The position numbers were made by a program, and so were the translations under genes. From positions 1-64,000 of the forward strand of contig CAJQUW010005352.1 in NCBI GenBank assembly GCA_907163375.1: DNA of 64,000 nucleotides, given 5' to 3'. Below are positions 35,676 through 53,876 of the stretch, in pieces. Position 1 is the first letter of the stretch. Each line of letters starts with the position of its first letter. The notes under the pieces are model-generated. The model searched no databases. It saw nothing but the letters and a program-made list of their open reading frames with translations, and was not told the DNA's origin. The stretch comes from Prostheceraeus crozeri. Its lineage: Eukaryota; Platyhelminthes; Polycladida; Euryleptidae.

Positions 35676-35829
35676 CAAAGTGACATTCGTATCATTTCAC
35701 TCTGTCTTTGTGACGTATAAGTGAAGTGTTCTCTGGCGAATTCTATATTAGAGGCGTACAAGTGAATTCCAAATTTGAGTGAAGTCTCTATCTTGTTGAA
35801 GTATCAAGCTTAAACATAATTCTGTTCAA

Positions 35830-38800
35830 ATGGTAAGTTGAAAATTTCTTCACTCATCTCCCTCAAACGTGTGGCTAATAGCATCTTCCTCAATTTCAGG
35901 CATCAACTTCATCACCAACACCCTCCCTTCTCGAGGAAAGTTTAGAGTTGTTGAGTCAAGGTAGGTTGTAACAATACACTGAGACTTGAACAGAGATGAA
36001 AGAATGATTTCTCTTTCAGGTGATACCAGTTCCATCTCGTGCGAGTCCATATCAACATTGTCGCGGGAATGCGACGATCGGCAATGTGCTGACTGTGGAC
36101 ACATCTTCACGAGGAAGCGTGATCTCATCCGACACATCAAGCGAGGTGTTTGTAGACCTAAGCCGGCATCAATCTCCGAAGGTAGAGATGATTCTGTTAA
36201 CGATGTCTCCTTTTCTTGCGATTTATGCATTCAGTCTTTCGAGACACGTTTTGAACTATCTTCGCACAGACTTCAACATACACACACGAACGATACCTAC
36301 ACCAACGGTACCTCCTCTATCCGACTCACTGAAGTGTCCATAAATAATTTAGTGAGGAACTACCAGATGGACTCCTCAGAAACCATTGCTAACTTTGAGG
36401 AATGGTTTCATCAAAATTCATCATTGATAGAAGCGCTCTTCAACAATTTAGACAATTTTAGAATGAAGGCGCTCATCTATCTTAAAATAAAATATATAAA
36501 AATCGACCACCATACTGGACAAATAATAGAGAGGTTGGAGTTTCACATACCCTCCTCTCCTGCAACCGAAGTTGTAGACTGTGAGTCTTGGATAAATTTT
36601 CATATCCAAGGGTTAAAATTAAATATAGATAAATTTAACGAGCGTGATAGTGGACTCGTTTTTGATGGTATTGAGACCGCCATGATTAAAATCAGTTTAT
36701 TAGGAAATCATAGTGGTCGAGGCTCCTTTAAACTTCCGAAAAATTTAAGAAATAAAGCAGCAGTCATTTCTGTAGATTGCGAATCGCAATGTTTTAAGTA
36801 TGCCGTCCTCTCCATTCTCCACTATAATGATGTGCAGAATAGCCGATACCGCAAGAGTAAGTATCAACAGTGGGAGAATGAATTAAACTTCGATGACTGT
36901 AATAGTGACGATATGAAAATTAAAGATATAGAAAAATTTGAAAAATTGAACAACATCAAAATAGTTCTCCATGTTTGGGAAAAGGGATTGAAGGGTGTGC
37001 GCTACAACTCGCGTTCGAGTTGTTATGAACGTACAGTAAACCTGTTATTAGTAAAACAGGATGATAGTGAGGAATGGCACTACTGCGGTATTCCCAAAAT
37101 CTCTCGCTTATACCACCACTTAGAAAACTCTAGTAGAGAGTTATATTACTGCGACAGATGTATTCGCCACTTTAGGAGGAAAACTAAATTTGAAACTCAT
37201 TACGAATGGTGTAAGCGAGGTAAACTACAAATGGAGCGCATGCCCAAAGATAAGGAGTTTTCATATAGAGAGAATGGTGATGAACTAAGTCCTCTTCGTG
37301 TCATCTATGCTGACATCGAATGTTATATCGATGATAACATCCATCGACCAGCAGCGATTTCCTGCTATGAAGTATGGCATGATCACTTTAGGAGTAGGCA
37401 AAATAAAATGCGCGTCTGGCAAGGTGAGGATTGTATTTACCAATTCCTACAATTCCTCGAACAGGCTGTAAAATTTCAACAAAAGTATGATGGTGAACTC
37501 TATCGCAGATCATTGCATATGACAGCAGATGATCAAGCAAAATTTGATAGTTGCAACGCTTGCCCCAAATGTAGGAAAACATTTGACGATGATAAGATTA
37601 AGAAAGTGCGCGACCATGATCACATCACTGGTAAATTTAGAAACGCACTATGTTCAAAATGCAATTTTTCACTTAGGATGAAACGGCGTACATTACCCGT
37701 CATTTTCCATAATTTCAAGGGCTACGACAGCCATATGATAATAAAAGGAGGTTTAGGTCAAATGAAGGAGTGGAAGCTTGATGTAATAGCACAAACGAGA
37801 GAGAAGTTTATGGCCATGACAGCAAAAGTGCCTGTCGATAAAACTAAAGAAAATAAGACGGTCTATTTTGATATAAAATTTTTAGATTCCTACCAATTTA
37901 TGACTGCATCACTGGCCTCTCTCGTGCAAAATCTAAAGTCTCTTCCAATAACACAAAATCTTAAGAAACAATATCCAAATCTAACCGATGAAGTCATCAC
38001 ACGGAAAGGAGTCTTTCCATATGCATATTTTGATGCGATTAGTAAACTCGGCGAGACTTCTCTTCCGCCCATAGATAAATTTAAAAATGATTTGACCGGC
38101 GCAGAATGTAAGACTGAAGATTATGATCATGCACAAGATGCATGGATAAAATTTGACTGCCATACATTTGGTGAATATATGATTGCCTACCTTAAGTTAG
38201 ATGTATTTTTGCTGGCTGATGTATTTCAGGAGTTTCGACGAGTGGCATTAGAAGAAGATAAGTTAGATCCCGTCCACTTTGTCAGTCTGCCAGCCATGTC
38301 ATTTAAGTCTGCTTTTAAAATGACTGGTGAGACCATTCATCTCTTACAAGATCCAGAGATGTATAATTTATTTGAGCGAGGAATTCGCGGTGGTCTCACA
38401 TTTGTAAATAAACATAGGTTAAAATCTGAAACAGTAGGTAATGATCAGACTCATCTTAAGTATTATGACCAAAATAATTTATATGGTAGTTCACTATCCA
38501 AACCACTCCCTCACTCTGAGTTTAGCTGGTTAGATGATAGTGAAATTCAGCATTTCTCCAACCCTTCTAACATACTAGCAATCCCAGATGAAGGTGATTG
38601 GGGATATTATTTTGAGATAGATCTAATCTATCCAAATAATATTAAACATAAAACCGTAGATTTTCCACTCGCACCCGAATCAGGTGAAGTGAGTAAAGAT
38701 ATGTTTTCCGACTTTATGAAACAATTTCATAAAGATTTAGAATCATGCGGTCAACCCGACTATAAGCCTTGCCGCAAACTTTTACTCACGCAGTATGATA

Positions 38801-39816
38801 AGGAAAACTATCTAGTCCACTTTAGCATCTTAAAATTTTATTTAGAAATGGGAATGATTTTAAAAAGAGTTCACCGCATTATTAAATTTAGACAGAAAGC
38901 CTTCCTCAAACCATATATTGATAGCAACAGCCAGAAACGTGCACTAGCCCACAATAATTTTGAAAAAGATTTTTATAAATATAAGAACAACAGTCTATTT
39001 GGTAAGACGATGGAGGATGTTAGAAAGCGCGTAAACTACAAACTAGTTAATGATGATCAAAAGTATCACAAATTGACCTCATCACCTCTATTCATCGATA
39101 GAGACATTATCGATGAGGACCTTATAGGTGTTAAAATGATAAAATCTGAAGTTGAGTTGTGCAAACCCATCTATATTGGTCAAGCTGTACTAGATTACTC
39201 CAAGCTTGAAATGTATCAACTCTTCTATAAAATACTAAAACCGTGTCCTCTCGTAAAAGAGGTTCGTTTGTTGGGTGGTGACACAGATAGTTTCTTCTTA
39301 GGTATTACCACTCAAAGAGATTTAAATTTTAATGAAGTAGGAAAATCTTTAGAAAGATATTTTGATACATCAAATTATCCTACTGATCATCCACTATACT
39401 CCATCAAAAATAAGGCCAAACTTGGTTGTTTTAAGGATGAGACAGCAGGGAAGGAGATAGCTGAAATGATTCTCCTCCGCCCTAAAATGTATTCTATGAA
39501 ATTGAAGGATAGTGATGATACCATTAAGCGCGCTAAAGGCATATCAAGATCATTGGTCTCTAACATGAAACATAAAAATTTCAAGGGAGCCTATAGAAAT
39601 AAAAATATAACGTTTGTCAATATGACAATCTTAAAATCTAAGTCGCATGAGATCAAAACTCATACTTTTAGGAAACGGGCGCTTTCAGCATGGGAGGATA
39701 AGAGGTGCTGGTTAGAACACAACATATCTCTTCCACATGGACATCCTGATACAGGCATACCACCACCCAAAAGAATTAAACCCACACTACCACATTCAGG
39801 AGACGTCTTAGCATAA
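35830..39816 (+). CDS. polB: Protein-primed DNA polymerase B, spliced
   Basis: Replicative polymerase, 1,286 residues when two short introns are removed. Exons: 35830-35832 (start ATG alone), 35900-35960 and 36020-39816. Donors GTAAGT (35833) and GTAGGT (35961) and acceptors ending 35899 and 36019 keep one frame. Domains: a C2H2-like finger (residues 45-67), a Polinton-type N-terminal region with a CFKYAVLSILH block, a second Cys/His finger (YYCDRC), the exonuclease site YADIEC (about 452), an endonuclease VII-like insert CPKC...HDHITG...CSKCN (536-570), then polymerase motifs A (NNLYGSSLS, about 842), B (KNNSLFG, about 1012) and C (GDTDS, about 1109). All catalytic acids seen are intact. The protein-primed class is inferred from the family. 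It converges on the 40111 gene. Confidence 0.95.
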
Positions 39817-40110
39817 TCATCCTTAACTTAGTATTTTGATGTTGATTTCTGTAGATAAACATTGTTGTTTTATGTATCGCATGAGATTGTTTTTCCTTGT
39901 GAATATCTGTACATTCCCCATGTGATGACGTTTCCACTGAAAGACATTTTTCCTATCCCTGTATATTTCCACCCTTCACGAAGTAAAAAGACTTTTTGTA
40001 TATAGCAATGTTTATTGAAGTGTGCTCATGTATATATTTTCAGTGGATGTTGTATAAAGTCTATTGCTTCACATTCATGCACATATTTCAATAAATGTTG
40101 TATAAAGACT
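39817..40110. terminator. Convergent 3' ends with overlapping polyadenylation signals
   Basis: AATAAA on the plus strand (40090-40095) would end the polymerase mRNA. AATAAA on the minus strand (plus TTTATT at 40011-40016) lies 95 bases past the stop of the facing gene. The two 3' ends would overlap by about 80 bases. Confidence 0.5.
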
Positions 40111-41661
40111 TCACTTTGTTTTCCGAAACACTAAAGTTACGAGGGATTTAGTATCTTTCACATGGATGCACTCTTGCAAACCATTGGTAATTTTGATAGT
40201 AATAGAGGGTATAGTTTGTTTGACGACGGGATGATAGAAAATAGATTCAAACATCTTCTCGACTATTCCATATGAAGCGTCTTTATCATGAATGAAATCA
40301 CGTAAAATGTATTCTTTTTTCTCACCAACAGAAATAGGTAGAATCAAATCACTTTGAATGTAAAGGTGCTGTTCATGTTTATCAAGTGTCATTGGTGTTT
40401 CTATACCAATCGTATGCGCAGCAGCAAACACTGTTTGTAGCATTGTAAAACCAAAGAGTTTTTTCAAATTTTTACTCAATTGACATTGAATGTCATCACC
40501 CAGTCTCAGAACAACGCGTTGATTTTCAATTGAAAACGAAATGTGGTGTGTCTTTACATCATATTTACTTTTCATCACATGCTTCAACTTCTGTTGTATA
40601 TAAGGATTTACTACATGAATGAAGCTTTCAACTGTATGATATAGACGCGGCATTATATTGATAGCAACTTTAGATTCTTCATAAGACTGGTAAATTTTCT
40701 TGATGTGATCGCCATAGATGTCCACCCACCATTCATCATTAACTGAATCAGCTTTAGTGTGATATTCATGAGAAGCATACACCACACCGCTTCCAATAAT
40801 AGGTGTATAATGTCTTACAAAATGACGCAAGGTTGGAGAGAAATAAACCGTAAGTTTGTCATTATATTTCTGAATAACCAACTTATTTTTGTTCGCCATA
40901 ATTTTCTCTCCATACTTCTTACCCACAGTCTCATTCCATCGTTTTACTAAGTCAATAAGTGATAAAGGTTGAACACCACGCTTTTTCAAAATGATGCGTT
41001 CTTCGCATTCTACAACATCTTCATCAAATATTTTAAATCTATAATGAAATTTGTTGATTCGATTTGAATAAACTTTTTTAACATTTGCAGTAGCAATTGA
41101 TGTTAGATGTAGTCCATGACCAAAACCAAGATGTGGATAGAATTCATTATCCAACCTCAGCGTAAGACCTTTAGTAAAAGAATGAAAGCGGAGGAACTGT
41201 CTCCCACTCCAATGATAGATAGTAAACTCATAAGCTTTCTGATTTTTATTCTTCATGATGGAAGTATTACCACTGTTGAATGCCTTAATAATTTTCTCAT
41301 TCCCAAATGGTTCATAAGAATCTGATTTTATCTGAATCCATTCATAGTTCCACTTTCCATCTGATGTTAAATTGTATGGGAACTGAAATGCATTATTCAT
41401 CGTTATTCCATCATGGGTGCGAGGAGTCAATATCATTTCTTCCAAATCATTCACATTCTGAATATTGCTATCATAGCAAATACTAGAAACACCAACCTCC
41501 CATTCACCTTCTGAATGCAGTGGCCGATTTAATTCTACTCGATAGTCTGATGGTTTATTTTTGGGAAATTTATTCATAGAAGCATTACTGGGCAAGTAGA
41601 TTAGAAACGAGTCCTTATTTTCACTTTCCATATTATTCACATTGGAAAAATATATTAGCAT
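40111..41661 (-). CDS. Polinton structural-type protein with GEWEVG motif
   Basis: 516 residues from ATG 41661, or 506 from a second ATG at 41631 whose N-terminus (ESENKDSFLIYLPSNASM) better resembles the family. It opens with LPSNAS, then a GEWEVGVSSICYDS motif, a long beta-rich region and a C-terminal part. This kind of protein is widespread next to capsid genes in animal Polintons; its role, perhaps minor capsid or vertex, is inference. The neighbouring broken gene (41671-43068) is a paralogue with NGNWEVGVTQLVYS. The upstream region has ATGCAAACGT, a weak form of the putative late motif. Confidence 0.65.
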   Translation of the reverse strand: MLIYFSNVNNMESENKDSFLIYLPSNASMNKFPKNKPSDYRVELNRPLHSEGEWEVGVSSICYDSNIQNVNDLEEMILTPRTHDGITMNNAFQFPYNLTSDGKWNYEWIQIKSDSYEPFGNEKIIKAFNSGNTSIMKNKNQKAYEFTIYHWSGRQFLRFHSFTKGLTLRLDNEFYPHLGFGHGLHLTSIATANVKKVYSNRINKFHYRFKIFDEDVVECEERIILKKRGVQPLSLIDLVKRWNETVGKKYGEKIMANKNKLVIQKYNDKLTVYFSPTLRHFVRHYTPIIGSGVVYASHEYHTKADSVNDEWWVDIYGDHIKKIYQSYEESKVAINIMPRLYHTVESFIHVVNPYIQQKLKHVMKSKYDVKTHHISFSIENQRVVLRLGDDIQCQLSKNLKKLFGFTMLQTVFAAAHTIGIETPMTLDKHEQHLYIQSDLILPISVGEKKEYILRDFIHDKDASYGIVEKMFESIFYHPVVKQTIPSITIKITNGLQECIHVKDTKSLVTLVFRKTK

Positions 41662-41670
41662 ACGTTTGCA

Positions 41671-43068
41671 TTAACTCTTCATTCGGAAATGGAGTGTGAT
41701 ACTTGTTACAGCATCTTTATGAAAAGGAATCAACGCACCAGCATCGTCATAAATGGCAATATCAATTTGTGGGATGTAGTTTGATTTCAGCTTTGTATAA
41801 TGCACTTTCTTGAAAGTATGCTCAGATAAAATACTGCAGCTTTTTGGCTGGTATGGTATCATTGCTAGCAATGGAGCTTCAACATCTCCCACACGTACAT
41901 CTTTACCAATATTGGAATATATCTGAAAATAGTTAATACGACGCGATAGTGACATGTCTGCGCTAGCTTTGGTTACAGTACCACTTTTAAAGATATTTTG
42001 ATCAAAACCCAAAATGTCCATTAGAGTTTTATCCATAATTAGTTCAATACCTTTTCCACTTATAGTGAGAGACAAAGTACCTTCTTTTTCAGAAAATGAA
42101 ATATGTTGCTAATTAACCACTTCATTTAAATAATCTACAACCAATTTAACCGAAGTAATAATGCGAGGCATCAACACTCTTGTTTTATGTAAGATACCAC
42201 CTAAAGACTCTACACACTTTCTGTATAAAGATACGGACCATTCTGTATCAAATTGATTTGACCTTTCACATGGTAAATGTTGCATATCAGATTTTCCATG
42301 AACAGCTGCAGAACGATGTCGCAAGAACTGATGAAAATCTTTTGAACAAACTAATACCAGATCATCATCATTTGATTTGCTTATTGCAATATGATTACAT
42401 GATTTAATATAAGTCAATGTTGCCACTTGTTTACCATCAACTCGAAGGAGATAATTAAATTTCTTCAATAATGTTTCAGGAGTCATGTTTGTCTTCCTTG
42501 GCTTAATCACAATCTTCTTCACCAACGTCTTCTCATTTCTTGGAATAAGATCTACATAATAAGCTTCCTCTCGATATATTAACTGTTTATGACCACTTAT
42601 GTGGTCATTAACGTTAAAATTATCATAGCTTGTTAAGGCGCTAGCGAGGTAGCCTAAATCATTTCTTAAACTTGGACTTAAACCAACAATCCAATCTTTC
42701 TCAACTACATGATGTACATAATTATAATCATCATTGTGCGGAGTAAATTGGACAATATGTTTACACGCTTTATTCAAGAAGTCATATATAAACTTTTTAC
42801 ATGATAAGAGATCTTTCTTTGGCCACTGTGGAATGTATACTCGGCACCCCTTTTCACATTGATAAGCAGCTGTACGTCTCATATTAATAGTCATCACCTC
42901 ATGATCAAAAGTATAGACACAGTTGCTATAAACAAGTTGAGTGACACCCACTTCCCAATTTCCATTTAGCTGTTGTACATGATCAATGGGAGTAGAAAAG
43001 AGTGCGGCTCGATTACTAGCAAATCTCTTTGTAGCCGCATTGCTAAGCAAAATATGATAAAACGACAT
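41671..43068 (-). pseudogene. Second GEWEVG-family protein, interrupted by an in-frame TAG
   Basis: ATG at 43068. A 319-residue N-terminal part with the NWEVG motif stops at TAG (42109-42111). In the same frame 11 open codons and then 134 more residues follow, to 41671. The downstream part has the expected C-terminal features of the family (GDVEAPLL, a Y-P-Q-I-D-I-A-I-Y-D-D segment and ITLHFRM), so one protein of about 465 residues was split by a single nonsense codon. The base context is TAG followed by CAA. Either it is a nonsense mutation or the stop is read through. It is divergent from the 43104 gene with a 35-base gap. Confidence 0.75.
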
Positions 43069-43086
43069 TTTTATATTGCTAATCTG

Positions 43087-43097
43087 CAACTTTGCAT
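43087..43097 (-). promoter_or_regulatory. Putative late promoter motif ATGCAAAGTTG (first copy)
   Basis: CAACTTTGCAT on the plus strand, identical to 48350-48360. In both places it sits 20-40 bases upstream of a minus-strand structural gene start and is followed by an A-rich spacer. Here it lies in the 35-base gap between divergent genes. Confidence 0.4.
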
Positions 43098-43103
43098 AAC
43101 ATC

Positions 43104-43460
43104 ATGAAGACTTGGATTTTGGACTCTCTACAATATATCAGAGTTGATCGTGATGGAAACGTACATTTCAAAAATTCTCATGGTCATACATCAAGAGGAA
43201 TTACATTAACATGGCGACAATTTGTCAACCTCAATGATATCATGAGGGATTTGGAATATTTTGAAACATTAAGATTCATCTCCTTGGGTGATCAAGTTTG
43301 GCTTCAACATTACAGAAATGAAATTCAAATCTACCATTCTCATTCCGCAAACTGTTTCTCATTTCGCAAATACAATTGGGGGAAGTATAGAAGATACATA
43401 CATCGCTCCATCATGACATTTATTCGTCGTGAGTTCATCGCCCTACTATGCAAATCTTAA
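43104..43460 (+). CDS. PC4-like (p15/SUB1-type) transcription cofactor, copy 1
   Basis: 118 residues. The first half (IRVDRDGNVHF...SRGITLTWRQFVNLNDIM) matches the PC4 C-terminal domain plan: beta strands, a Gly-Ile-x-Leu-x strand and a helix starting at a W-x-x-F/L position. PC4 binds single-stranded DNA and supports RNA polymerase II initiation. The second half (WLQHYRNEIQIYH...FSFRKYNWGKYRRYIHRSI) repeats the strand-helix plan, so the protein may hold two PC4-like units. A paralogue follows 22 bases downstream, then the TBP-like gene. The assignment is by fold pattern only. Confidence 0.55.
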   Translation: MKTWILDSLQYIRVDRDGNVHFKNSHGHTSRGITLTWRQFVNLNDIMRDLEYFETLRFISLGDQVWLQHYRNEIQIYHSHSANCFSFRKYNWGKYRRYIHRSIMTFIRREFIALLCKS

Positions 43461-43482
43461 TCAGACATGACTACCACACATC

Positions 43483-44140
43483 ATGAGTTGGAAATTAGAT
43501 TCCCTACAACGTATTGAAACGGATCATGATCGAAACGTCTATTTCAAAGATTCAACTGGAAAAGTGAGAAGAGAGTTTGTTTTATCTTATCGTCATTTTC
43601 AATCTCTACATCAAATCATGAAGGACTTGAAATACTTCTATATGAAAAGACATTCACGTATTGGAAATCGCATCTGGCTTCGCGTCAACAATCGGCGAAT
43701 TCAACTCTATCATTCCCAACTTCATACTAACTTCACATTTCATCAAGGTAGTTGGGAGAAGTATAAAAGGAAGGTGCATCGCTCAATTTACTCATTCTTT
43801 CATCATGAAGCGCCATCGCTACACCATCGTCAACATTCTCTGTCGCTTCAGACTCTACACCAAAATCGATCTCACAACATTACACCAACACATTCCAAAC
43901 AGCAAGTATTACCCGGGCCGACCTCAAATGTTAGTGGTGAAGATGAACAATTCACGGAATCTTCAACTCTTCCCAAATGGAACTGTACAGATTCTCGGCG
44001 CCCTTTCTCATTCATCGGCGCAGTCAATGCGCTTAGAGCTACAAAGACTACTACGTCGGATATGGAAGAGGGAGAGGTGTGTGATGTCGAATCTGACTGT
44101 GGACAATATGGTGATCTCTACTCAATTGAGAGAGAGAGAG
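43483..44140 (+). CDS. PC4-like transcription cofactor, copy 2
   Basis: ATG 43483. Residues 1-105 are clearly paralogous to copy 1: both have LDSLQ(Y/R)I, D-x-x-x-NV(H/Y)FK(N/D)S, Q-I-M-K-D-L-(K/E)-Y-F, IG-(N/D)-(R/Q)-(I/V)-WL and a W-x-K-Y-(K/R)-R-x-(V/I)-HRSI end. Copy 1 ends just past this point, but here the frame stays open across the first half of the TBP-like gene in another frame, with an acidic segment (DMEEGEVCDVESD), until it runs into the LINE. The tail may be chance or a genuine overlap. Confidence 0.5.
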
Positions 44141-45896
44141 AGAGAGAATACTATATTCACGGCAAATTCATGCATGTGACTAAATACATTAACATCATAA
44201 CATCATTCATAAATAACATAGAAAATTAAAGGAAAATAAAACAAAATGAACGAGTTCGTAGTCCTTCTTTGTGCCACTCCACTTGTCTGCCTTATGTACT
44301 TTCGAATGGCTTCCAAAGCACTTGCCGATTTGTGATGACGAACTCTAGCATCCGATGGAATTCTGTTCCAGAAGCTGGCACCAAAATAGCGGATAGAATT
44401 TTTCCCATACTTGACAGTTCTATATTTGGGCTGTTCGAAGACGCTTCTGTGAGACTTATCTGGAGCAGGACAGAAAATGTGCATGAGAGGAATAGGAGCA
44501 ATACCTGGCTCTTCCATACTAGTGGTAATTAGCTTATGTTCCTTATGTTCCTCATTCTTATAAACAGTCCAGGAGTTTTGAATTGATTTCATGAGTCGGT
44601 GTAGAGTCAAATACCAGCACTCAAGCAGACTGCATGCATTCAAAGATACTTGCAATGACTCTATAGGAGATGTGTCATAAAGATGGAGATCCATCATGCT
44701 GTGTCGAAGGCACCTCGCATACATCATGTCAAGCTTACGCTGTGCAGATGGTGATGCAAATAACAGAAGCGGTGAAACATAGTCGAAATGAGGCTTTACG
44801 AAAGTTTGAATTAAACGCCACCTAACTTTCTTGTTAATAAATTTCTTTACACGATTTATGCCGTTTAGCTTCCATGCAACTTTGCGAGTAATAGTTTTGA
44901 CATGATCCTCAAAAGTAAAGGACTTGTCGATCGTGACACCAAGCAATCGGAGCTCACTCGACTGTTCAAGAGTCTCGCCCTTAACTTTGAAACGTAGATC
45001 TTCCGAGTGATCACCCCATGCGACACATTGACATTTCTCGTTGTTCATTTTCATGCAGTTTTTGTCTAGCCATCGCCAAGTTACATCTAATGTCTGAGTT
45101 GCTAGTTTCTGAACACGAGAAAGACTATCATCTGCTATCCACATCGTGATGTCATCTGCATATATAGAGATATTTACACCCAATGATTGAATCAAAATGA
45201 TGAGATCATTTAGATAAATGTTCCATAATAACGGTCCTAGCTGAGAACCCTGGGGAATTCCTTTTGTCATGCTGTAACATTTGTCAAACTTTTGTCCATT
45301 CATTCTCACATAGTTCTCTCTGCCACTCAGATATGATGTCATGATACTTAATGCAGTGCTTTGTAATCCGTAGGCTTTAAGCTTTTGTAGAAGCAATTCG
45401 TGAGATATACTGTCAAAAGCTGCACTCAGATCTAGCGCAATAACAGCAACTGTTTTCTTTTTGTCGATGCTAAGCTTCCACGACTCAGTCATAAACACAA
45501 GGGCACTCTCAGTACTGTGATTACGTTTGTAGGCAAATTGGTATGGTGATAATTTTGGAATAATGAAGCGAGACAGTTGCAATGTCAAAATAGATTCAAA
45601 TACTTTTGAAAACTGATTCAGAACGGTCACGGGTCGATATCGATTAACATCACATCGATTGCCACCTTTACAAACAGGCGACCAAAGACCCCGTTTCATA
45701 GTCGATGGAAATTGTCCTGAAGAAATGCAAACATTGAAAAGATATGATAGCACCATGGAAATAACAGGAGCGGAGATTTTAACAACACTAGCTGGAATTC
45801 CATCTATGCCGGTTGACTTGCCGCTTTTGACTTTTGTCTTGATCACATCTTCAATAGTGGATTGGGATATCCTCATGAGTGAAAGTGTATCATTTT
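44136..45896 (-). mobile_element. 5'-truncated jockey/CR1-type LINE inside the TBP-like gene
   Basis: Contains the 557-residue RT reading frame, an A/T-rich 3' region and a TCTCTCTC-type end (plus-strand GAGAGA run at 44131-44150). The 5' end is near 45880-45900, just before the RT domain, so the endonuclease and ORF1 are missing, as in most LINE copies. I could not find a convincing target duplication. Both boundaries are approximate and were set by where the TBP-like frame is lost and regained. Confidence 0.85.
44203..45876 (-). CDS. LINE reverse transcriptase
   Basis: Non-LTR reverse transcriptase fragment. Motifs in order: SGKSTGIDGIP, ALDLSAAFDSISH, GIPQGSQLGPLLWNIYLNDL, the catalytic YADD in SIYADDITMW, LRLLGVTID, and a C-terminal FGASFWNRIP block typical of jockey/CR1-like elements. 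The frame is fully open for 557 residues without damage, which points to a young insertion. Confidence 0.95.
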   Translation of the reverse strand: MRISQSTIEDVIKTKVKSGKSTGIDGIPASVVKISAPVISMVLSYLFNVCISSGQFPSTMKRGLWSPVCKGGNRCDVNRYRPVTVLNQFSKVFESILTLQLSRFIIPKLSPYQFAYKRNHSTESALVFMTESWKLSIDKKKTVAVIALDLSAAFDSISHELLLQKLKAYGLQSTALSIMTSYLSGRENYVRMNGQKFDKCYSMTKGIPQGSQLGPLLWNIYLNDLIILIQSLGVNISIYADDITMWIADDSLSRVQKLATQTLDVTWRWLDKNCMKMNNEKCQCVAWGDHSEDLRFKVKGETLEQSSELRLLGVTIDKSFTFEDHVKTITRKVAWKLNGINRVKKFINKKVRWRLIQTFVKPHFDYVSPLLLFASPSAQRKLDMMYARCLRHSMMDLHLYDTSPIESLQVSLNACSLLECWYLTLHRLMKSIQNSWTVYKNEEHKEHKLITTSMEEPGIAPIPLMHIFCPAPDKSHRSVFEQPKYRTVKYGKNSIRYFGASFWNRIPSDARVRHHKSASALEAIRKYIRQTSGVAQRRTTNSFILFYFPLIFYVIYE

Positions 45897-46125
45897 TGAA
45901 GATTCGTACCAGCAGTTACAATTTGTGTTATGAACCCGAACTTTTTCCTGCAGCTCTCATTAGTTGTTGGTTACCTGTGCATGTGGCAATCTTTCATAAT
46001 AGTAAAGTTATCATTACTGGACTAAAATCTCATGTACAAGCAAATGTGATCCTAGACTATCTCATTGAGTATGTACGTACCCAGCGGATTGTAAAATAAA
46101 AAACAATTTTTCCAACATGATGTTT

Positions 46126-46587
46126 TTATTTCAAATCATGATAGAACTTACAAATCATTTTTTCATTAGAGGATGGATTACATGAAAAGTTTTGAATAAT
46201 AGATGCAAATCGAGATACATGTAAACGTTTTAAGATGAAGTACAGTACAAAAGCACCACACGTTGATGAAAGTGGATGTTGTAGTATGCGTTCATTTCGC
46301 TGATATTGACGCGTATGTTTTCTCAACCACTGCTGTGTTGGTATATTTGGAGGTTGAGCAAGAGAGTCAAATAGTTCACCACGTCGGTCTTCTCCAATAA
46401 AGATCGCTTTCCAATGCTCACCGCCTAAATTCTTCGAATGAGTGTTTAGCACAATAAAGATGGGATAGTGATTTACTGCAGGTGGTAAGGTATCGAGTGA
46501 ATAGACATTATCGAAAGCTTTCAACGTCGCTTCGTCTGCATTACGCTGCACTTTAGTCTTAATATCGTCAGCAGTCAACCAACTCAT
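46126..46587 (-). CDS. Adenain-like capsid maturation protease
   Basis: 153 residues. Cysteine protease of the adenovirus protease fold. Catalytic residues: His58 in GGEHW, Asp74 in LFDSL, Gln103 and Cys110 in the segment ending SSTCGAFVLYF. It cleaves structural precursors during assembly in related viruses. Its ATG overlaps the stop of the capsid gene (TAATG). Its own stop overlaps an AATAAA signal, and the convergent TBP-like gene ends 26 bases away in the same manner. Confidence 0.9.
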   Translation of the reverse strand: MSWLTADDIKTKVQRNADEATLKAFDNVYSLDTLPPAVNHYPIFIVLNTHSKNLGGEHWKAIFIGEDRRGELFDSLAQPPNIPTQQWLRKHTRQYQRNERILQHPLSSTCGAFVLYFILKRLHVSRFASIIQNFSCNPSSNEKMICKFYHDLK

Positions 46588-47864
46588 TAACGATTATACT
46601 GAAGAATCACGTCACGATACTTTGTAATTTCAATATTTGAATCGAAGACTGCATAAATTAATACATTGATCGTCTCAGGTAGTGTTCTTTTGAACGTCAA
46701 ATCCAAACGAATATTATGAGGCACGTTCGCTTGACGATAGGGTGCACTAATATCGCTGTCAGCAGTCAAATCAAATGCATAAATAGTATATCCACTCTTA
46801 AACTCTTTCATAGTCAGTCCGTTGGTATCATCCGTATTGTAAAAGCCAAAGACATCCATAAAATCAACATAACTGCGCATAAATTGATCCGCAGCAAAAT
46901 CTGGTTTGTAGGGTGGACCAGGATGACTCACACCATTTACACGTAAAGCAATTTCACTTAACTGATTGTGTTTAAAATTGAAAGGATTCTTCTTTATATT
47001 ACCATTAAATGCGTCATTTTCAACCATTGCCACCATGAGGAGCTTCGGTGCTTCCGATGGAAAGAGGCCATCTTTCATGAAACTCTTTTGATCTTTCGGA
47101 ATTGTAAAGGTGAGAAGCTTTGTATGCTGAACGTGGTAAATGGCATTTTGGCGGTTAAGACCTTCAGCATGTCCTCTAATGACACTTGGATTCGGTACTA
47201 CTCGACGAATGTAAAGTGCAATATCTTCCACATGAATTCTAAAATTGTCAACTTTAGCAAATGCATTCAGCGCAAATTCAGGCTTATTCAATGTCAGCTT
47301 GAGTCGCATGCTGGTATTACAGAGTAAAAACTTTGACTGTCTAAAGAAGTCTAAATTCAGCGGAGCATATAGCTGACATACTCTACTATCTTTAATCATA
47401 GCAGATCGCTTTACAAAGCCACTGTTTGTTTCAACATCAAATTTTCCTGCTTCATCTCTGTACCATCCCATGGCTTCCATATGACTTTTTTGTGCTGCTG
47501 GATGAAACTGTGATACATGATTGAAATATGATTTATAGGGATAATCGCTTTGACCACCTTCCACCTGCTGCTCTCCAATCGTTAGAGAAACATCGCGAAG
47601 TAATGTAGTCAATGGTAAATTGTTCAGTCCAACTTTATGTGCATCGTCAATAGCAGTTCCATCTGCTTGCTGAATTCTAAACCTCAAATCAAGCATCGCA
47701 TAACTGAAATCTATGTAGTCATCACTACCACCAGGAATAACAAATTCAATGGGGCCAGCATTCTCAGCTGTTCGAGGATGATAATCTACAATACTTGAAC
47801 TAAGAATATCTGTCTGTATGGCTTGTTGATCGAACCAACAAAAACCGGAAGTTTTACACTCCAT
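46587..47864 (-). CDS. Probable major capsid protein (double jelly-roll type)
   Basis: 425 residues. The N-terminal block (GPIEFVIPGGSDDYIDFSYAM...LRFRI) and internal segments (VEGGQSDYPYKSYF; MGWYRDEAGKFD; RVVPNPSVIRGH) belong to a protein set common in animal Polintons and often assigned to the capsid hexamer-forming protein. Its length suits a compact double jelly roll. It lies between the pX-like core protein (2-base gap) and the protease (1-base overlap), the usual structural cluster. The capsid role rests on family resemblance, not on a structure comparison. Confidence 0.7.
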   Translation of the reverse strand: MECKTSGFCWFDQQAIQTDILSSSIVDYHPRTAENAGPIEFVIPGGSDDYIDFSYAMLDLRFRIQQADGTAIDDAHKVGLNNLPLTTLLRDVSLTIGEQQVEGGQSDYPYKSYFNHVSQFHPAAQKSHMEAMGWYRDEAGKFDVETNSGFVKRSAMIKDSRVCQLYAPLNLDFFRQSKFLLCNTSMRLKLTLNKPEFALNAFAKVDNFRIHVEDIALYIRRVVPNPSVIRGHAEGLNRQNAIYHVQHTKLLTFTIPKDQKSFMKDGLFPSEAPKLLMVAMVENDAFNGNIKKNPFNFKHNQLSEIALRVNGVSHPGPPYKPDFAADQFMRSYVDFMDVFGFYNTDDTNGLTMKEFKSGYTIYAFDLTADSDISAPYRQANVPHNIRLDLTFKRTLPETINVLIYAVFDSNIEITKYRDVILQYNR

Positions 47865-47866
47865 GA

Positions 47867-48322
47867 TTAGAAGTTATAGCAGCGTCGTCGTTTAGCGCCT
47901 GATGAATGATTAGAGCCTCTGCGACGTTTGCGTGAATGCCTTTTGACTGAAGATCGCACCTTACCAGCTCCGCGATGTTTCCTCCTTCCTTTATTCATTC
48001 GTTTAGGTGATTTCTTTCCTTGAGTAACACCAGCAATGGTCTGCTTCAATGTTTTTAAACCGCGTTTCTTCCCACGATTCAACAAACTGCTCTTAAAACT
48101 TCTACCTCTGGAAAGATCACTAGCAACATCACCAGCAAAGCCAACGGCATTACTTAAAACATTTCGTTTTAAAGATCTTCCGACATTGGATATGAGAGGT
48201 GCTACAACAGATTTCAGTGCACCAAGTATGCTACCTCCACGTTGGCGGCGAGCGCCGATGTAAATTTGTCCTCCACCACTTACATAGGAGGGTCGTGAAT
48301 AAAATGAGACAGTTGGATTCAT
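47867..48322 (-). CDS. Basic virion core protein, adenovirus pX/pVI-like
   Basis: 151 residues. An N-terminal RGGSILGALKSVVAPLI segment resembles the hydrophobic/amphipathic region shared by adenovirus pX and related Polinton proteins. The C-terminal 60 residues are extremely rich in Lys and Arg (KSPKRMNKGRRKHRG; KRHSRKRRRGS), suited to binding packaged DNA and acting as a nuclear signal. The putative late motif lies about 30 bases upstream. A second protein with a similar hydrophobic end is encoded at 50972-51328. Confidence 0.7.
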   Translation of the reverse strand: MNPTVSFYSRPSYVSGGGQIYIGARRQRGGSILGALKSVVAPLISNVGRSLKRNVLSNAVGFAGDVASDLSRGRSFKSSLLNRGKKRGLKTLKQTIAGVTQGKKSPKRMNKGRRKHRGAGKVRSSVKRHSRKRRRGSNHSSGAKRRRCYNF

Positions 48323-48349
48323 AGCTCAAACCCTAAACATTGTTAGTTA

Positions 48350-48360
48350 CAACTTTGCAT
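48350..48360 (-). promoter_or_regulatory. Putative late promoter motif ATGCAAAGTTG (second copy)
   Basis: Identical 11-mer to 43087-43097, upstream of the pX/capsid/protease gene run, which has almost no other intergenic space for a promoter. Confidence 0.4.
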
Positions 48361-48363
48361 GAA

Positions 48364-49452
48364 TCACTGTCGATCACTTAGATGAAAGATGTCGGCACGA
48401 CGCATCCAAGAGTTCATACTTGAAGGATAACCAGTCCATTTAACAAGACACCATTCTTCACCTTGCCGTTTTTTACATCGAATGATTTTCTCTACCAAAT
48501 ATGTTTCACTTTCAGTGACTACCTCAATCTCATCGCGGTAAAAGCTACCCTCAATTTCTTCATTATCGTAATCTTTCAACTTGTAGGTGGTCGGAGAGTC
48601 TTTTTGATTAATCCTTGATACTGTAAATACCTCCTCTGTCCAATTCGGAAGGTACCCTTTAGCAAAAACACTTTTCACTTTTGAGATACGAACTTTATCA
48701 CCAATTTTCACATCACTTTTCACATGAGTGCGTTTACGTTGGAATGATTCGCGCACTTTATCTACATTGTCAGCATTTACATCTACTGGTCTGAGTCCAA
48801 TAGAACGATGGATAGAGTGATTGTAGGCATGGAGTGTATCTTGTAGAACCTTTGTCCAATTTTGTGTCAAGTTGGCGGTAAAATGTCGCCACAAGCGATT
48901 TTTTAATGTGCGATTAAAACGTTCAACGAGTGCAGCTTTATAAGCACTCTTTACACTAAACAACTCAATGTCATGCCTCTCAAATAATCTTGTCACATGC
49001 TGATTTTCAAACTCTTTTCCTTGATCACTCTGAATTCTTTTTGGAATGCGACCTTCTCGAAAAATTGTTTGGAATGCTTTTGCTACTCCTTTCCCTTCTT
49101 TAGTTTTTAAAGGTTGAGCCCACGCATAACGCGAGAAAATATCAATGACGGTTAAAATAAAATTATTGCCCGAGTTATGTTTTGAAATGGAGGCAACATC
49201 ACACAAATCTGCTTGCCACTGTTCATCGATGTCATGAACAATATAATGGCGGGTGCGGTACTTCTTTTTCGCTTGTTTGTGGAGTGTATAGGTAGCCTGA
49301 CCCTTTAACCATCGTTTCACTTGTGATTGTGGAAGACCACTCGCTTTTGATAATTTCTTGATAGATGCAAATCCTGCCGGATGTTTTACATCATAATAGA
49401 TTGACTTCAAACGTTCAGTCGATGACGACTGACTCTTTTTCCTCCTTCTCAT
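48364..49452 (-). CDS. Retrovirus-like integrase with C-terminal chromodomain
   Basis: 362 residues; inserts the element and makes the 6-bp duplication. The N-terminus has the Polinton-type helical DNA-binding region (HPAGFASIKKLSKASGLP...KRWLKGQ) and not an HHCC finger. The rve core shows Asp82 (WQADL), Asp143 (QSDQGKEF) and a Glu about 34 residues later (LVERFNRTLKN). A small beta-barrel follows (IGDKVRISKV). The end (YLVEKIIRCKK...EWCLVKWTGYPSSMNSWM) is a chromodomain, known in Polinton and chromovirus integrases to target modified histones. All key residues are present. Confidence 0.95.
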   Translation of the reverse strand: MRRRKKSQSSSTERLKSIYYDVKHPAGFASIKKLSKASGLPQSQVKRWLKGQATYTLHKQAKKKYRTRHYIVHDIDEQWQADLCDVASISKHNSGNNFILTVIDIFSRYAWAQPLKTKEGKGVAKAFQTIFREGRIPKRIQSDQGKEFENQHVTRLFERHDIELFSVKSAYKAALVERFNRTLKNRLWRHFTANLTQNWTKVLQDTLHAYNHSIHRSIGLRPVDVNADNVDKVRESFQRKRTHVKSDVKIGDKVRISKVKSVFAKGYLPNWTEEVFTVSRINQKDSPTTYKLKDYDNEEIEGSFYRDEIEVVTESETYLVEKIIRCKKRQGEEWCLVKWTGYPSSMNSWMRRADIFHLSDRQ

Positions 49453-49630
49453 CTTTTTGTTTTCTTACCTTTCTATATTTACAACAACTGCAGCATTTAG
49501 CTTTAGCGGTTTTGCGATCGTGTTCACATTGCTTAGGGGTTTCATTATGAGAGCTGGCGCAGAAAGTGCAAGTGACAACGACATTCACCTCTGGCGGCTC
49601 ATTACATGGCAAGCAACTTATCTGCTTCAT
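49415..49630 (-). CDS. Small Cys-rich protein
   Basis: 71 residues with CLPC, CTFC, C and CCSCC, enough for one or two zinc sites, and a Lys/Glu-rich tail. Overlaps the integrase start by 38 bases in another frame, in line with the dense packing of this strand. No family recognised, and chance is possible given its size. Confidence 0.4.
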   Translation of the reverse strand: MKQISCLPCNEPPEVNVVVTCTFCASSHNETPKQCEHDRKTAKAKCCSCCKYRKVRKQKDEKEEKESVVID

Positions 49631-49631
49631 A

Positions 49632-50326
49632 TTAATAGTCTGAGAACATGTATTTCCTAGGAGGAGCTGTTTTACGTTTTCCTTTTACTAGTTTTAGTGG
49701 TGATGTAGATCTACGTCGAGTTCTTTCTCTTGTTTGCTTAGTGAGTGTGGGAGGGGATGTAGCAGGTGACGTCTTAAACCAATTTGTTGGCATTTTCATC
49801 GCCTGAAGCATTGGAGCAGTAGCCACTGTTGAATCAAGTTCTTTCAATGTCTCATTATTCAAAGCAAATTTTGGCACATTATGCTTTTTCAATAGTTTAA
49901 GAAAGTATGACCAACCAGGTGGAACATAGCCCTGACGGCGCTTTCTACGTGTCGCATACTGAATCAAGTCTTCATAACGTGAAGCATCAATCACTTTATT
50001 TTCATCTGTAATGATTTCTCCTCTATCATTTACATTGAGATGGGGTTCAATACTGTTGAAAAGAGATATGGCATGTGCGCGAGTGATGCTAAAGGTGTAG
50101 CAGTCGATACAGAGTCACGCATCTTATTCTTCAAGTTTTTCAATTGCTCAACAGTTTCCGATTGTAATAATACAGCACGATGTGGATCTTTGATGTGAAC
50201 ATTTTGCTGATAATCTATTTCTTTCCTATACATTTGATTTGCAAGAGGTTGCTTTACTTGCTGCATGGCAGTCAATTGTACATATTCATCCTGAGGAATA
50301 ACAATCATGCGAGAATAAGAACTCAT
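49632..50326 (-). pseudogene. Polinton conserved protein next to the ATPase, frameshifted
   Basis: Two frames form one gene. Codons from ATG 50326 give about 75 sensible residues (VIPQDEYVQL; HRAVLLQSETVEQL). The homologous continuation (RAHAISLFNSIEPHL; GEIITDENKV; ASRYEDLIQYATRRKR; PPGWSYFLKLLKKHNVP) lies in another frame down to 49632. The switch is near 50100-50110, in an otherwise open stretch, so one indel or an assembly error explains it. The GxI-ASxYxDLI-P-GW-F-LxxxNVP pattern is common in Polintons, function unknown. The start overlaps the ATPase stop (ATGA). Confidence 0.6.
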
Positions 50327-50988
50327 AGTTTGTAGATAATCATGGGAGTTTTCAAAATATCACTTCGAAATCTAAATTCTTCCGGACACTCTTGCGTAAA
50401 GTCAATGAATAAGTAACCGTATGGTTTTTCAGTAGCTGCTTGAAAATTTTCAATTAATGCTTTTGATCCTCTGGGTGCAACTTGTCGCGCTAAAATTTCA
50501 AATTGACTTTTATCTCGCGGATTCTTGAAAATAGCATAATAGTGTGTATTCAGGTTTCGTGTACGAGTTTCTTTTCCATCAGGAAACAAATTTTGTGTGA
50601 TATAGATGATAAAGCACCTTTTATGGTGTGCTGCGCGAGTGAACATATCTGTAACATCTTTTGAATTCTTACTTTCTTTTAATAAATCATCCAATACAAC
50701 AACATCATTAGACTGAAGTTTATCCACTGGAATAATTCCTTCATGTCGAATAAAGTTGCGACTTTGCAATTCCTGAAACAGCGACGGTTGATAAATACCA
50801 TAACACCAAATCACTCGATTGATAGGTTCCTTAAACAACTCCCTTCTTTTATCCAATAAATTCAGCGTGAAAACAGTTTTACCTGCATGAGATGGACCTG
50901 ATACAGTCAGAACTTTATCACATTGAAGTCTGAAATCCATTTTATTACTTTGAGATTCAACATTTGCATAATTAACGCTTAGAGGCAA
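50323..50988 (-). CDS. Genome-packaging ATPase (FtsK/HerA, A32-like)
   Basis: 221 residues. Walker A GPSHAGKT (31-38) and Walker B VVVLDDL (96-102) are intact, followed by a likely sensor segment YITQNLF. This compact P-loop ATPase pumps DNA into capsids in Polintons, virophages and related viruses. Its start overlaps the upstream basic protein gene by 17 bases and its stop overlaps the next start by four. Confidence 0.95.
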   Translation of the reverse strand: MPLSVNYANVESQSNKMDFRLQCDKVLTVSGPSHAGKTVFTLNLLDKRRELFKEPINRVIWCYGIYQPSLFQELQSRNFIRHEGIIPVDKLQSNDVVVLDDLLKESKNSKDVTDMFTRAAHHKRCFIIYITQNLFPDGKETRTRNLNTHYYAIFKNPRDKSQFEILARQVAPRGSKALIENFQAATEKPYGYLFIDFTQECPEEFRFRSDILKTPMIIYKL

Positions 50989-51328
50989 AGATATTACCCA
51001 ATAGGTTGCCCACGGCAGGAGCTATCATTGGAAGTATTGCTGAAAGGAAGCCGCCCTTTTGTGTTAGAGTTTTCCTCTTTCTTTGAAGGGTGACTTTAGG
51101 ATTGGAGATGAAACGCAATTTCGTAGCATATCGCTTAAGTAACTTTCGTTGTTTTGGCGCTAATTTCTTCGTCCTCAACTTCCTCACATGAGAAATAATT
51201 TCACAAATGAATTTATCGTTAGCATGTCGTATAGCATTGTATCGCTGATTTGCTTTCATTCGTCGGAGAGCTTGAATGGCTGAAGAAAACTTTTGACTTT
51301 TACGTTTCGTCATTTTACGTTTCGCCAT
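50972..51328 (-). CDS. Basic protein with hydrophobic C-terminus (pX/core-like)
   Basis: 118 residues. The first 90 are strongly basic (MAKRKMTKRKSQKF; RKLRTKKLAPKQRKLLKRYA). The end (QKGGFLSAILPMIAPAVGNLLGNIF) parallels the GGSILGALKSVVAPLI segment of the 47867 protein. A virion core or membrane-active role is inferred. It overlaps the ATPase gene by 17 bases. Confidence 0.65.
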   Translation of the reverse strand: MAKRKMTKRKSQKFSSAIQALRRMKANQRYNAIRHANDKFICEIISHVRKLRTKKLAPKQRKLLKRYATKLRFISNPKVTLQRKRKTLTQKGGFLSAILPMIAPAVGNLLGNIFASKR

Positions 51329-51336
51329 TTTCCGTG

Positions 51337-51708
51337 TTAGTCTTTGCTAAAACCTATCTTTACCACATTTGCATAGGTACTAACTATTGCGACATAAGTG
51401 ACACTCGAAATGAGCAATATCACAGTGGTTACATTGGCAAAGTTGAATGCAATTACGTATGAAACAGCGTTGACAAAAGCATGCTTACATCTCTTGAAGA
51501 TGCGCTTTTCATTTCCATCCTTTCGCTTACATACATCGCAACACATAGTTTCACAGTTACTGATGTCTATAGCAAGTCTTTTTGAAGATATGAATTTGCT
51601 AGCCTTTTCTAAATAATAGACGCATGTACAGAAGGAATATACTTCGAGAGTGAGCAGACATAGCTCGAAAACCAATTGTGCTACAATCAAGTACCACTGC
51701 ATTTTCAA
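51337..51708 (-). CDS. Two-helix membrane protein with a Cys cluster
   Basis: 123 residues. A hydrophobic N-terminal segment (WYLIVAQLVFELCLLTL) and a second near the C-terminus (VTTVILLISSVTYVAIVS) look like membrane helices. Between them lies CETMCCDVCKRK and a basic patch. Family unknown. It overlaps the upstream gene by four bases (ATGA), which supports it as real. Confidence 0.55.
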   Translation of the reverse strand: MKMQWYLIVAQLVFELCLLTLEVYSFCTCVYYLEKASKFISSKRLAIDISNCETMCCDVCKRKDGNEKRIFKRCKHAFVNAVSYVIAFNFANVTTVILLISSVTYVAIVSTYANVVKIGFSKD

Positions 51709-52115
51709 TTTTTCTTTATGGAAAGTTGAATGTGAATATCTGAAATCGCTTCAATCACTAGACTGCTACCATGATGGTTAAATGCGTTAAGACGTTCAGC
51801 AATTTTTATCATATGTCTTTTAAAAAATTCTTCGGGGTGATCTACCACTTCCATTGAATAAGAAGCAAAATGGAAAGAGCGACTTTCCACCTCTTCCCTT
51901 CCAAAATGACTAAACTTCATTTTCGCAACTAATCGCGCCATGATAATGCTATAAGAGAATGTATTCATTAACTCTAGAAATAGAGTGCTAGCATCATCGA
52001 CCACTGCTTCGATGTCGGTCTCATCTTTATGAAAATTTATCACATAATCTTGAACAGCTCCTTTCAAACTTTGCCTATGAAAATGTAATGTTCCGCAGTC
52101 GTTTGAGAAAGACAT
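51705..52115 (-). CDS. Stand-alone paralogue of the polymerase N-terminal domain
   Basis: 136 residues. The layout matches residues of about 125-260 of this element's polymerase: a helical start, FSYSIIMARLVAKMKFS against FRMKALIYLKIKYIK, an FH-(F/I) strand, an EEFFKRHM-type helix, and LNAFNHHGSSLVIEAISDIHIQLS against IDKFNERDSGLVFDGIETAMIKIS. In other Polintons this domain is found fused ahead of the polymerase. A separate copy suggests a partner or decoy role, which is inference. Confidence 0.5.
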   Translation of the reverse strand: MSFSNDCGTLHFHRQSLKGAVQDYVINFHKDETDIEAVVDDASTLFLELMNTFSYSIIMARLVAKMKFSHFGREEVESRSFHFASYSMEVVDHPEEFFKRHMIKIAERLNAFNHHGSSLVIEAISDIHIQLSIKKN

Positions 52116-52202
52116 GATCGCCCTTTATCTAACCCATCCATTGCATGAAAACAACAACTCTTCTCATAGTAACATTTATTGAATAACGGTAACAAGCATG
52201 CA

Positions 52203-52751
52203 TTATAAATCAATGGTTTGAAAGAGATAAAATAGATACAGCTGGTAACTATCATACAGCGAGCAATGATAACCATACAGGACTTTGGCAGTGTTGAGGT
52301 AAGGAGGAAAGAAGCATTGGTTATGAACGTAGCTACTACAACGAACAGACAAAATAGGAACACACAAATCCTTGAAACGCTTCGTGACTTCATGATAATG
52401 TTGATTCACTCTACTATCCCAAGGCGGGAGCAAAATATCATCAATGATAAGATTGGGAAATACTTTCCTCTCCTTACCAGGATTATTACAAAAGATGCGT
52501 ATAACATTGAAAGCAGCTAACCATCGTTTAAAGTCAATAAGAAGAGCACTCTCACAAGAAAAGCCATAGTCTTGCAAATATTTCAGATTAAGTCCATGAA
52601 TGTGTTTTCTCGCCCATTGATCAACATTGGGATCGCAGTTGGCATGTTGATGATAGACACTGACAATCTGATATGTCCAATTGTTCATAGCAATAGCACT
52701 GAGCTCCTGTACAGGTTCACCCTCACAATCCATAAAAATGATGATAGAAGC
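52203..52751 (-). CDS. DEDDh-type 3'-5' exonuclease-like protein, spliced start
   Basis: The exon opens at an acceptor (TTTCCGTTTTAG, ending at 52752) and stays open to 52203. An internal ATG (52733) could start a 176-residue product. If spliced to an ATG-ending leader exon, as in two other genes, it starts Met-Ala-Ser and gains the beta strand ahead of the active site. Motif I is DCE in FMDCEGEPVQELSAI; HIHGLN and LIDFKRWL fit the middle region; motif III is H-C-S-L-Y-D (HxxxxD). Motif II is atypical (NNPGKE). Such enzymes trim 3' ends or proofread. The match is by motif only. Confidence 0.55.
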   Translation of the reverse strand, partial: ASIIIFMDCEGEPVQELSAIAMNNWTYQIVSVYHQHANCDPNVDQWARKHIHGLNLKYLQDYGFSCESALLIDFKRWLAAFNVIRIFCNNPGKERKVFPNLIIDDILLPPWDSRVNQHYHEVTKRFKDLCVPILSVRCSSYVHNQCFFPPYLNTAKVLYGYHCSLYDSYQLYLFYLFQTIDL

Positions 52752-52784
52752 CTAAAACGGAAATTACACATCTAAGGAAACGTT

Positions 52785-52985
52785 CTATAACATATTACAA
52801 AATGAAGAATTACATCGATGCTTTTCACGACAAAATACACAAATGATATGATGGCAACGAAGAAGTAAAATGTATCTAATAAGACCACGTCTACGACACT
52901 CAAAGCACATAAGCGAATTGTCATAGGGTAGAGTTAGGAAAGGACTAGTAATTCTCCTTCTTTGATTTGCGTTTTGATGCAGCAT
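52785..52985 (-). CDS. Small RING-like zinc protein
   Basis: 66 residues from ATG 52985. The C-terminal 40 hold CFEC, RCHH, CVFC, H-x-C and a final C, a RING-like arrangement with an RCHHIICVFC core. It resembles, but is not the same as, the RING ORF at 27532. RING proteins in large DNA viruses often act as ubiquitin ligases; no such role is shown here. It overlaps the next ORF upstream. Confidence 0.45.
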   Translation of the reverse strand: MLHQNANQRRRITSPFLTLPYDNSLMCFECRRRGLIRYILLLRCHHIICVFCREKHRCNSSFCNML

Positions 52986-53142: not shown

Positions 53143-53196
53143 TTTGAAAAGGATATCCCAAGTACCTTCTCCGAGCTCATCACATCTGATGGGTAT

Positions 53197-53863: not shown

Positions 53864-53876
53864 ACAATAACATCAA

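Follow-up and report, generated by a model that had tools for sequence, protein, structure and literature searches.

Viral TATA-binding proteins (TBPs) have been reported for large DNA viruses, namely herpesviruses, nucleocytoplasmic large DNA viruses (NCLDVs) and mirusviruses. For the beta- and gammaherpesviruses, the literature describes a vTBP of the Kaposi's sarcoma-associated herpesvirus (KSHV) ORF24 type that binds a TATT box at late promoters and operates together with the host RNA polymerase II (Pol II) (PMC13345323). CpV-BQ1 encodes a TBP that is thought to act on the host RNA polymerase (PMC12085832), 59% of mirusviruses possess a TBP (PMC10132985), and B263R of African swine fever virus (ASFV) keeps three of the phenylalanines whose role in kinking DNA has been described for TBP (PMC5825884). 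NCLDVs, CpV-BQ1 and mirusviruses share the possession of a viral TBP with the element described here; however, they are large viruses, some of them with an RNA polymerase of their own. Here we report a TBP-like gene in a Polinton of the flatworm Prostheceraeus crozeri, a transposon-virus of about 25 kb in which no RNA polymerase gene was noticed, and which extends the range of viral TBPs accordingly. A link between Polintons and the origins of several eukaryotic DNA virus groups has been proposed. The element resides in a 64,000-nucleotide stretch of DNA (contig CAJQUW010005352.1, positions 1 to 64,000; hereafter the window), where the TBP-like gene directly follows two tandem paralogues, PCa and PCb. 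Our favoured though still tentative reading, to which we assign nearly even weight, is that a Polinton lineage carries a promoter-selecting transcription cassette in which a divergent TBP is joined by one or two proteins of PUR/Whirly type.

A Polinton TBP is new to the literature searched, although priority is not certain. Keyword searches on Polintons, Mavericks and adintoviruses, with subscription papers, the adintovirus description and the 2006 Polinton papers outside their scope, returned no report of one, in agreement with a first-pass annotation of the window that knew of none. The available text of Polinton and adintovirus papers searched internally held no TBP or PC4 wording, and TBP wording in the Polinton papers examined refers to megavirus, CpV-BQ1, mirusviruses, mirusvirus-like elements of Cymbomonas or a reference list.

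A divergent TBP encoded by a Polinton

The cassette spans positions 43104-46099 on the plus strand, opposite to the capsid block, and comprises the following features:

43104..43460, plus strand: PCa, PUR/Whirly/PC4-type protein of 118 residues, fold taken from homologue P0126
43483..44130, plus strand: PCb, paralogue of PCa; tail predicted to be disordered, ending in ..SIE
43805..44134, plus strand: TBP-like gene, first repeat and beginning of the second (PF00352, E 1.6e-12)
44135..45877, minus strand: insertion of long interspersed nuclear element (LINE) type that splits the TBP gene in the window copy; ends approximate
45878..46099, plus strand: TBP-like gene, remaining second repeat with YEPELFP (PF00352, E 3.8e-5)

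The first-pass annotation had placed these genes on one strand between capsid-side genes. The shared strand holds, as does a protease-/capsid-type block on one side, but the other side is occupied by an unnamed paralogous pair; both sets of neighbours are on the minus strand.

Scanned alone, each half of the TBP-like gene exceeds the curated cut-off of Pfam PF00352 (22.9 bits), the N half with 47.5 and the C half with 23.9 bits, which bears out the earlier assignment as a two-repeat TBP gene. The start then given for the N half, 43804, precedes the ATG at 43805 by one base and belongs to the reading frame of the gene upstream. Within the intervening LINE-type insertion, the minus strand encodes an RVT_1 domain (E 1.4e-33) and a reverse transcriptase open reading frame (ORF) at 44203-45876, and the two TBP halves were analysed apart throughout, as separate rows of the alignment. 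The intact environmental homologue P0003 aligns with both halves and matches PF00352 in two stretches (72.8 bits); a model of P0003, rather than of the broken window copy, displays the full-length saddle fold.

Residue frequencies were counted in the 104 of 120 listed environmental proteins that have at least 155 residues, with kink positions matched by alignment. The four positions of the DNA-kinking phenylalanines, which are typical but not universal in TBPs, are occupied by Pro in 101 proteins and then by Phe, Phe and Phe in all 104. Retention of three does not exclude membership of the TBP family, because other accepted TBPs also have three (PMC5825884). N101, V103, E129 and P132 occur in 104 of 104 homologues, and the stirrup residues E129, F131, P132 and A133 are invariant among them; the Thr position of repeat 1 holds Leu (88), Met (12) or Phe (4), while that of repeat 2 is Thr in 103. 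Compared to cellular TBPs (PF00352; human 1cdw, yeast 7o4i, M. jannaschii 2z8u), to which it is 18-26% identical, the Polinton version is element-encoded in an intron-free ORF, has its first kink Phe replaced by Pro (within GRP) and lacks the repeat-1 Thr. The second repeat is conventional and the first is remodelled. In TBP the second-repeat stirrup faces TFIIB and the first-repeat stirrup faces TFIIA. From the conserved residues we infer that the element TBP binds and bends DNA and recruits TFIIB.

The PUR/Whirly-type paralogues

PCa and PCb are 43% identical, and neither gave a Pfam match over cut-off or a PDB sequence match. The first-pass annotation had called them two tandem PC4-like paralogues; they are indeed tandem and paralogous, but the match to PC4 proper did not materialise. 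The Pfam PC4 profile found nothing in the two paralogues, the segment 43104-43460 included, nor in 6 aligned members of the family, and PC4 has a single repeat per chain and dimerises, whereas the model of P0126 carries two ββββα repeats in one chain. Tandem repeats of this kind within one intramolecular domain are the hallmark of the PUR/Whirly type. PC4 proper is accordingly rejected, and 'PC4-like' is, judging by the model, right for the wider fold group only. Foldseek alone gave no match at E <= 1e-3 for the PUR-like fold, and a PUR/Whirly sequence-profile search of the PCa/PCb-type proteins gave none either; identity to Pur-alpha repeats I-II, Whirly and MRP1-2 is about 7-12% without a profile match, and the PUR-like protein differs from these in its long tail, predicted to be disordered with one helix. 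A Nudix match in PCb (0.0092, below cut-off) was judged to be due to chance.

Recurrence in the host genome and origin of the TBP

Searching the host genome with PF00352 yielded at least 150 matches, four of which represent the host TBP and a TBPL-type gene. Twenty loci of about 10 kb were picked from these matches, so that TBP is present in them by choice; all 20 have a PC-type match and a polymerase match as well. Nine (L009-L014, L019, L024, L028) additionally match protease, capsid and integrase. The remaining eleven (L015-L018, L020-L023, L025-L027), with polymerase, PUR-like and TBP matches, form a divergent clade; these elements were covered for about 5 kb on each side, short of their ends, and within that span showed no protease, capsid or ATPase match and one integrase match. 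They are possibly capsid-less Polinton derivatives. Three further copies were chosen by PCa and not by TBP: all three hold TBP, and PCa, PCb, TBP, protease and the neighbouring gene follow in unchanged order.

A genome search with PCa produced 150 scored matches (13598 candidates), every one 99-100% identical and free of stops. These at least 150 near-identical, intact copies in a 2.05-Gb genome (e.g. L010-L014, L030-L032) are, to judge by their sequences, the product of a recent and large Polinton burst. Compared with the window over a length of 1.5 kb, ten copies show 95.8-98.3% identity and L028 shows 85.8%. Between L014 and L028 the ratio of nonsynonymous to synonymous substitution (dN/dS) is 0.22 for PCa, 0.23 for the PCb core, 0.26 for the overlap part of TBP, 0.16 for the protease and 0.44 for the minor virion protein, with a dS of 0.30 in the TBP overlap part and 0.35-0.51 in the other genes. 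In L016, L017 and L023 (clade 2) a pyrimidine-rich stretch ending in ttag precedes the start of the PC gene and resembles a splice acceptor; the clade-2 PC gene may be spliced.

The host TBP lies on contig C9306 as two matches about 15 kb apart. It shares 25% identity with the window N half over 95 residues and, in a stretch of 35 residues surrounding the stirrup, 40% with the C half, and other members of the Polinton TBP family are 23-37% identical to the first host exon over at least 62 residues. In a FastTree phylogeny of 115 sequences, 104 environmental and 7 genome proteins form one clade of 111 tips (support 0.949), separate from the host, microsporidian and two archaeal TBPs; the tree has four outgroups and a long stem. 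A TBPL1/TRF2-like host gene fragment (G000:C3829, L002) and the host TBP are at a similar distance from the Polinton TBP. Scans of IMG/VR with five TBP queries confirmed no relative, and a scan with the capsid protein found none. BFVD returned 47 matches at E <= 1e-3, and the named ones among the 50 rows listed are mainly from large DNA viruses; rows 2, 3, 5 and 6 are nameless viral proteins that match TBP well (e.g. A0A5P9U4S6, TM 0.77) and may be relatives.

Overlap of the PCb and TBP reading frames

From about position 43805 the PCb tail overlaps the N half of TBP in a different frame, and in the window copy the LINE has shifted the position of the PCb stop. Seventeen genomic TBP genes were gathered; after two frame-changed genes and one counted twice (L005 and L009 are the same place in the genome) had been dropped, 14 distinct genes were left, and in 12 of these the PCb frame is open for 102-113 codons. 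When the TBP codons of three clade representatives were resampled synonymously, the PCb frame was equally long in at most 2, 6 and 5 of 5000 resamplings, and its conservation exceeds resampling in two of three clade pairs. The PCb tail motifs FSF..A...L and EE..VC.IE are found again in three clades. Among the environmental TBPs, 23 have 50 or more residues ahead of the GRP motif; 15 of these show Ile-Lys upstream, in 14 cases at 48-52 residues from the motif, a pattern known here from the proteins alone. The window has S-I-K at this place; W-E-K-Y-K together with TATAAA would give it in that frame.

Motifs upstream of the genes

Two kinds of motif lie upstream of the element's genes:

43762..43769, plus strand: TATAAAAG, 43 nt upstream of the TBP ATG, within PCb codons Y-K-R
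43448..43454, plus strand: ATGCAAA, -35 of PCb
43091..43097, minus strand: ATGCAAA, -29 of the gene starting at 43068
41665..41671, minus strand: ATGCAAA, -40 of the gene starting at 41631
48354..48360, minus strand: ATGCAAA, -38 of the gene starting at 48322
50963..50969, minus strand: ATGCAAA, -29 of the ATPase-type gene starting at 50940
51368..51374, minus strand: ATGCAAA, -46 of the gene starting at 51328

The sequence TATAAAAG occurs exactly only once in the element. Its distance to the TBP start in the three clades is -43, -43 (clade 2) and -46 (clade 3), and the 14 distinct genomic TBP genes include 10 with the exact sequence and two with a TATA variant.

In the 60 nt upstream of genes, clade 1 has ATGCAA as its commonest 6-mer (6 of 17), and clade 3 has AAGCAA (7 of 15). 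In the sense direction, A[AT]GCAA precedes 8 of 17 starts in clade 1 (0.84 expected) and 7 of 15 in clade 3 (0.83 expected) within 60 nt, as against one antisense occurrence in the same windows of each clade; correction of two starts raises clade 1 to 9 of 17. Clade-3 start codons were chosen by homology, and three of the clade-1 windows (PRO, U50030, U51337), which lack the motif, are anchored off an ATG. The hits nearest the TATA position lie 28-47 nt before the start, PCa (-59) excepted. The top count of clade 3 is matched by 3 of 3000 random sets, and ATGCAA with one mismatch is present in 11 of 15 clade-3 windows compared to 5.4 in random sets (14 of 3000 reach it).

Proposed function and alternative explanations

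The simplest account would be a promoter-selection cassette with a mode of action like that of the beta- and gammaherpesviral vTBP, a virus-encoded TBP mimic that reads a non-canonical box of late genes. KSHV ORF24 has several further domains, whereas the Polinton TBP is a bare core of about 180 residues that overlaps the PUR-like gene, and the herpesviral box is TATT whereas the candidate here is A(T/A)GCAA, to which binding is presumed. Of the promoter-selection module suggested by the first-pass annotation, the presence, folds, recurrence and motif positions have been established here; DNA binding, TFIIB use, the order of events and a helper function of the PUR-like protein belong to the conjectural part. 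The host TBP would read the single TATAAAAG box so that the element TBP is made; the latter would bind the A(T/A)GCAA box that precedes genes for replication and the virion, and would recruit host TFIIB and Pol II via its conventional second repeat with the YE.ELFP stirrup, while its altered first repeat could shift the choice of DNA or the contact with TFIIA. The PUR-like protein may assist by binding or opening single-stranded promoter DNA, and control would thereby pass from host-read promoters to those read by the element. This fuller version, a self-contained switch in which a host-read TATA inside the PUR-like gene yields vTBP, and vTBP and the PUR-like protein then read a private A(T/A)GCAA that changes with vTBP between clades, is distinctly less probable than the cassette itself, and we regard it as speculative. 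If true, a transposon-virus of about 25 kb, reliant on host Pol II, would have evolved a herpesvirus-like early-to-late switch independently.

Several observations weigh against these proposals. The link between the A(T/A)GCAA motif and the Polinton TBP is one of position, and the motif comparison took in TBP-bearing elements. Once motif choice is taken into account, the signal of clade 1 by itself is modest (its top count is equalled in 93 of 3000 random sets), clade 2 has the motif at one of 6 genes checked, and ATGCAAA is not enriched over the whole element (11 seen, 8.4 expected). The form ANGCAA, found in 8 of 15 clade-3 windows and in 0 of 3000 random sets, is not an independent test because it was written after the clade-3 sequences had been viewed. 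Two of the 14 distinct TBP genes have no TATA match at all, and given the Y-K-R codons, TATAAAAG would appear in about 20% of synonymous recodings per clade, and in about 1% for all three. As for the overlap, the PCb frame has an early stop in 2 of the 14 genes (L026, L007), and the pair L014-L009 shows no excess conservation of it (169 of 1000 resamplings reach the observed value). The length of the open frame carries more weight than the conservation test, because the third, unused frame is equally conserved across the overlap in all three pairs (0.218, 0.269, 0.366 compared to 0.188, 0.25, 0.356 for PCb). Third-base identity at same-residue codons does not rise in the overlap (21/40, 21/44, 31/50) relative to the part after it (13/29, 15/25, 21/38).

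ATGCAAA is also similar to the octamer to which host POU proteins bind, as would befit an unlikely alternative in which the Polinton TBP acts against the host by competing for TFIIB or promoters and redirecting host Pol II, while the genes of the element rely on host factors and A(T/A)GCAA is a host-factor site. A retained second repeat and stirrup next to a changed first repeat is what a decoy could look like; yet the motif shifts from ATGCAA to AAGCAA between clades of the same genome, which a co-evolving, element-encoded reader explains more easily. Slightly less probable still is a role of TBP and the PUR-like protein in DNA replication or genome handling, in bending or binding terminal inverted repeats (TIRs) or single strands, rather than in transcription. 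Eleven of the 20 loci, where the cassette sits near a polymerase gene and about 5 kb on each side lack a match to capsid, protease or ATPase, lend themselves to this explanation, and repeats I-II of Pur-alpha can bind single strands of DNA and unwind the duplex (PMC4764581); upstream motifs common to two clades speak for transcription instead, as does the description of viral TBPs as transcription factors in the literature consulted. Chance capture of a host TBP exon by the window copy, the case that the first-pass annotation had named as fatal to its proposal, has a negligible probability and is rejected: three element clades and all three copies chosen without regard to TBP carry the gene, the host gene is in distant pieces and divergent, and the Polinton-type TBPs form their own clade in the tree.

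The promoter-selecting cassette is a concrete and testable proposal for the way in which an integrated element might control the timing of virion genes, and the at least 150 near-identical copies together with three divergent clades allow a direct comparison of the promoter code and of the pairing between TBP and motif.

Architecture of the element

The complete element and its remaining features are listed below:

31057..55950: complete Polinton, 24,894 bp, defined by TIR ends and target-site duplication (TSD)
31051-31056 and 55951-55956: TSD GATCTA, 6 bp, directly outside the Polinton
31057..32359, plus strand: left TIR with internal repeats, from TIR alignment
54647..55950, minus strand: right TIR; repeat copies reach out to 53873
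35986..39816, plus strand: large polymerase-type protein; Pfam finds endonuclease VII and a weak C2H2, nothing else
40111..41631, minus strand: unnamed protein, paralogue of the next
41671..43068, minus strand: unnamed gene, paralogue of the preceding; stop at about 42109 in the window copy
46126..46587, minus strand: protease, Ulp1/adenain type (Pfam below cut-off: C48 1.3e-3, C5 0.034)
46587..47864, minus strand: putative major capsid protein, from size, order and a motif
47867..48322, minus strand: putative minor virion protein, basic, named from position alone
48364..49452, minus strand: integrase (rve 9.5e-11) with chromodomain (Chromo 5.5e-7)
50323..50940, minus strand: putative A32-like packaging ATPase, named by order (Pox_A32 0.033, chance level)
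50972..51328, minus strand: small basic protein, adenovirus mu/PX-like (Adeno_PX 0.0025, below cut-off)

The element resembles Polintons/Mavericks and adintoviruses in its TIRs, 6-bp TSD, retrovirus-like rve integrase and polymerase-, protease- and capsid-type genes. The putative protein-primed PolB, adenain-type protease, A32-type ATPase and double-jelly-roll major capsid protein have weak or no profile matches and were assigned via gene order and motifs seen by eye; GDTDS and KNNSLFGK in 35986..39816, spotted by eye, we take to be PolB motifs. Profile and PDB searches with the putative major capsid protein gave no match. The gene at 41671-43068 is a single ORF in several other copies (e.g. 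L009, L010, L024, L030). The TIRs of about 1.3 kb pair 31057-32359 with 55950-54647 at 95.1% identity in the alignment. They contain internal repeats of about 485 bp (31057-32359, 53873-55950), of which the right side has more copies than the left.

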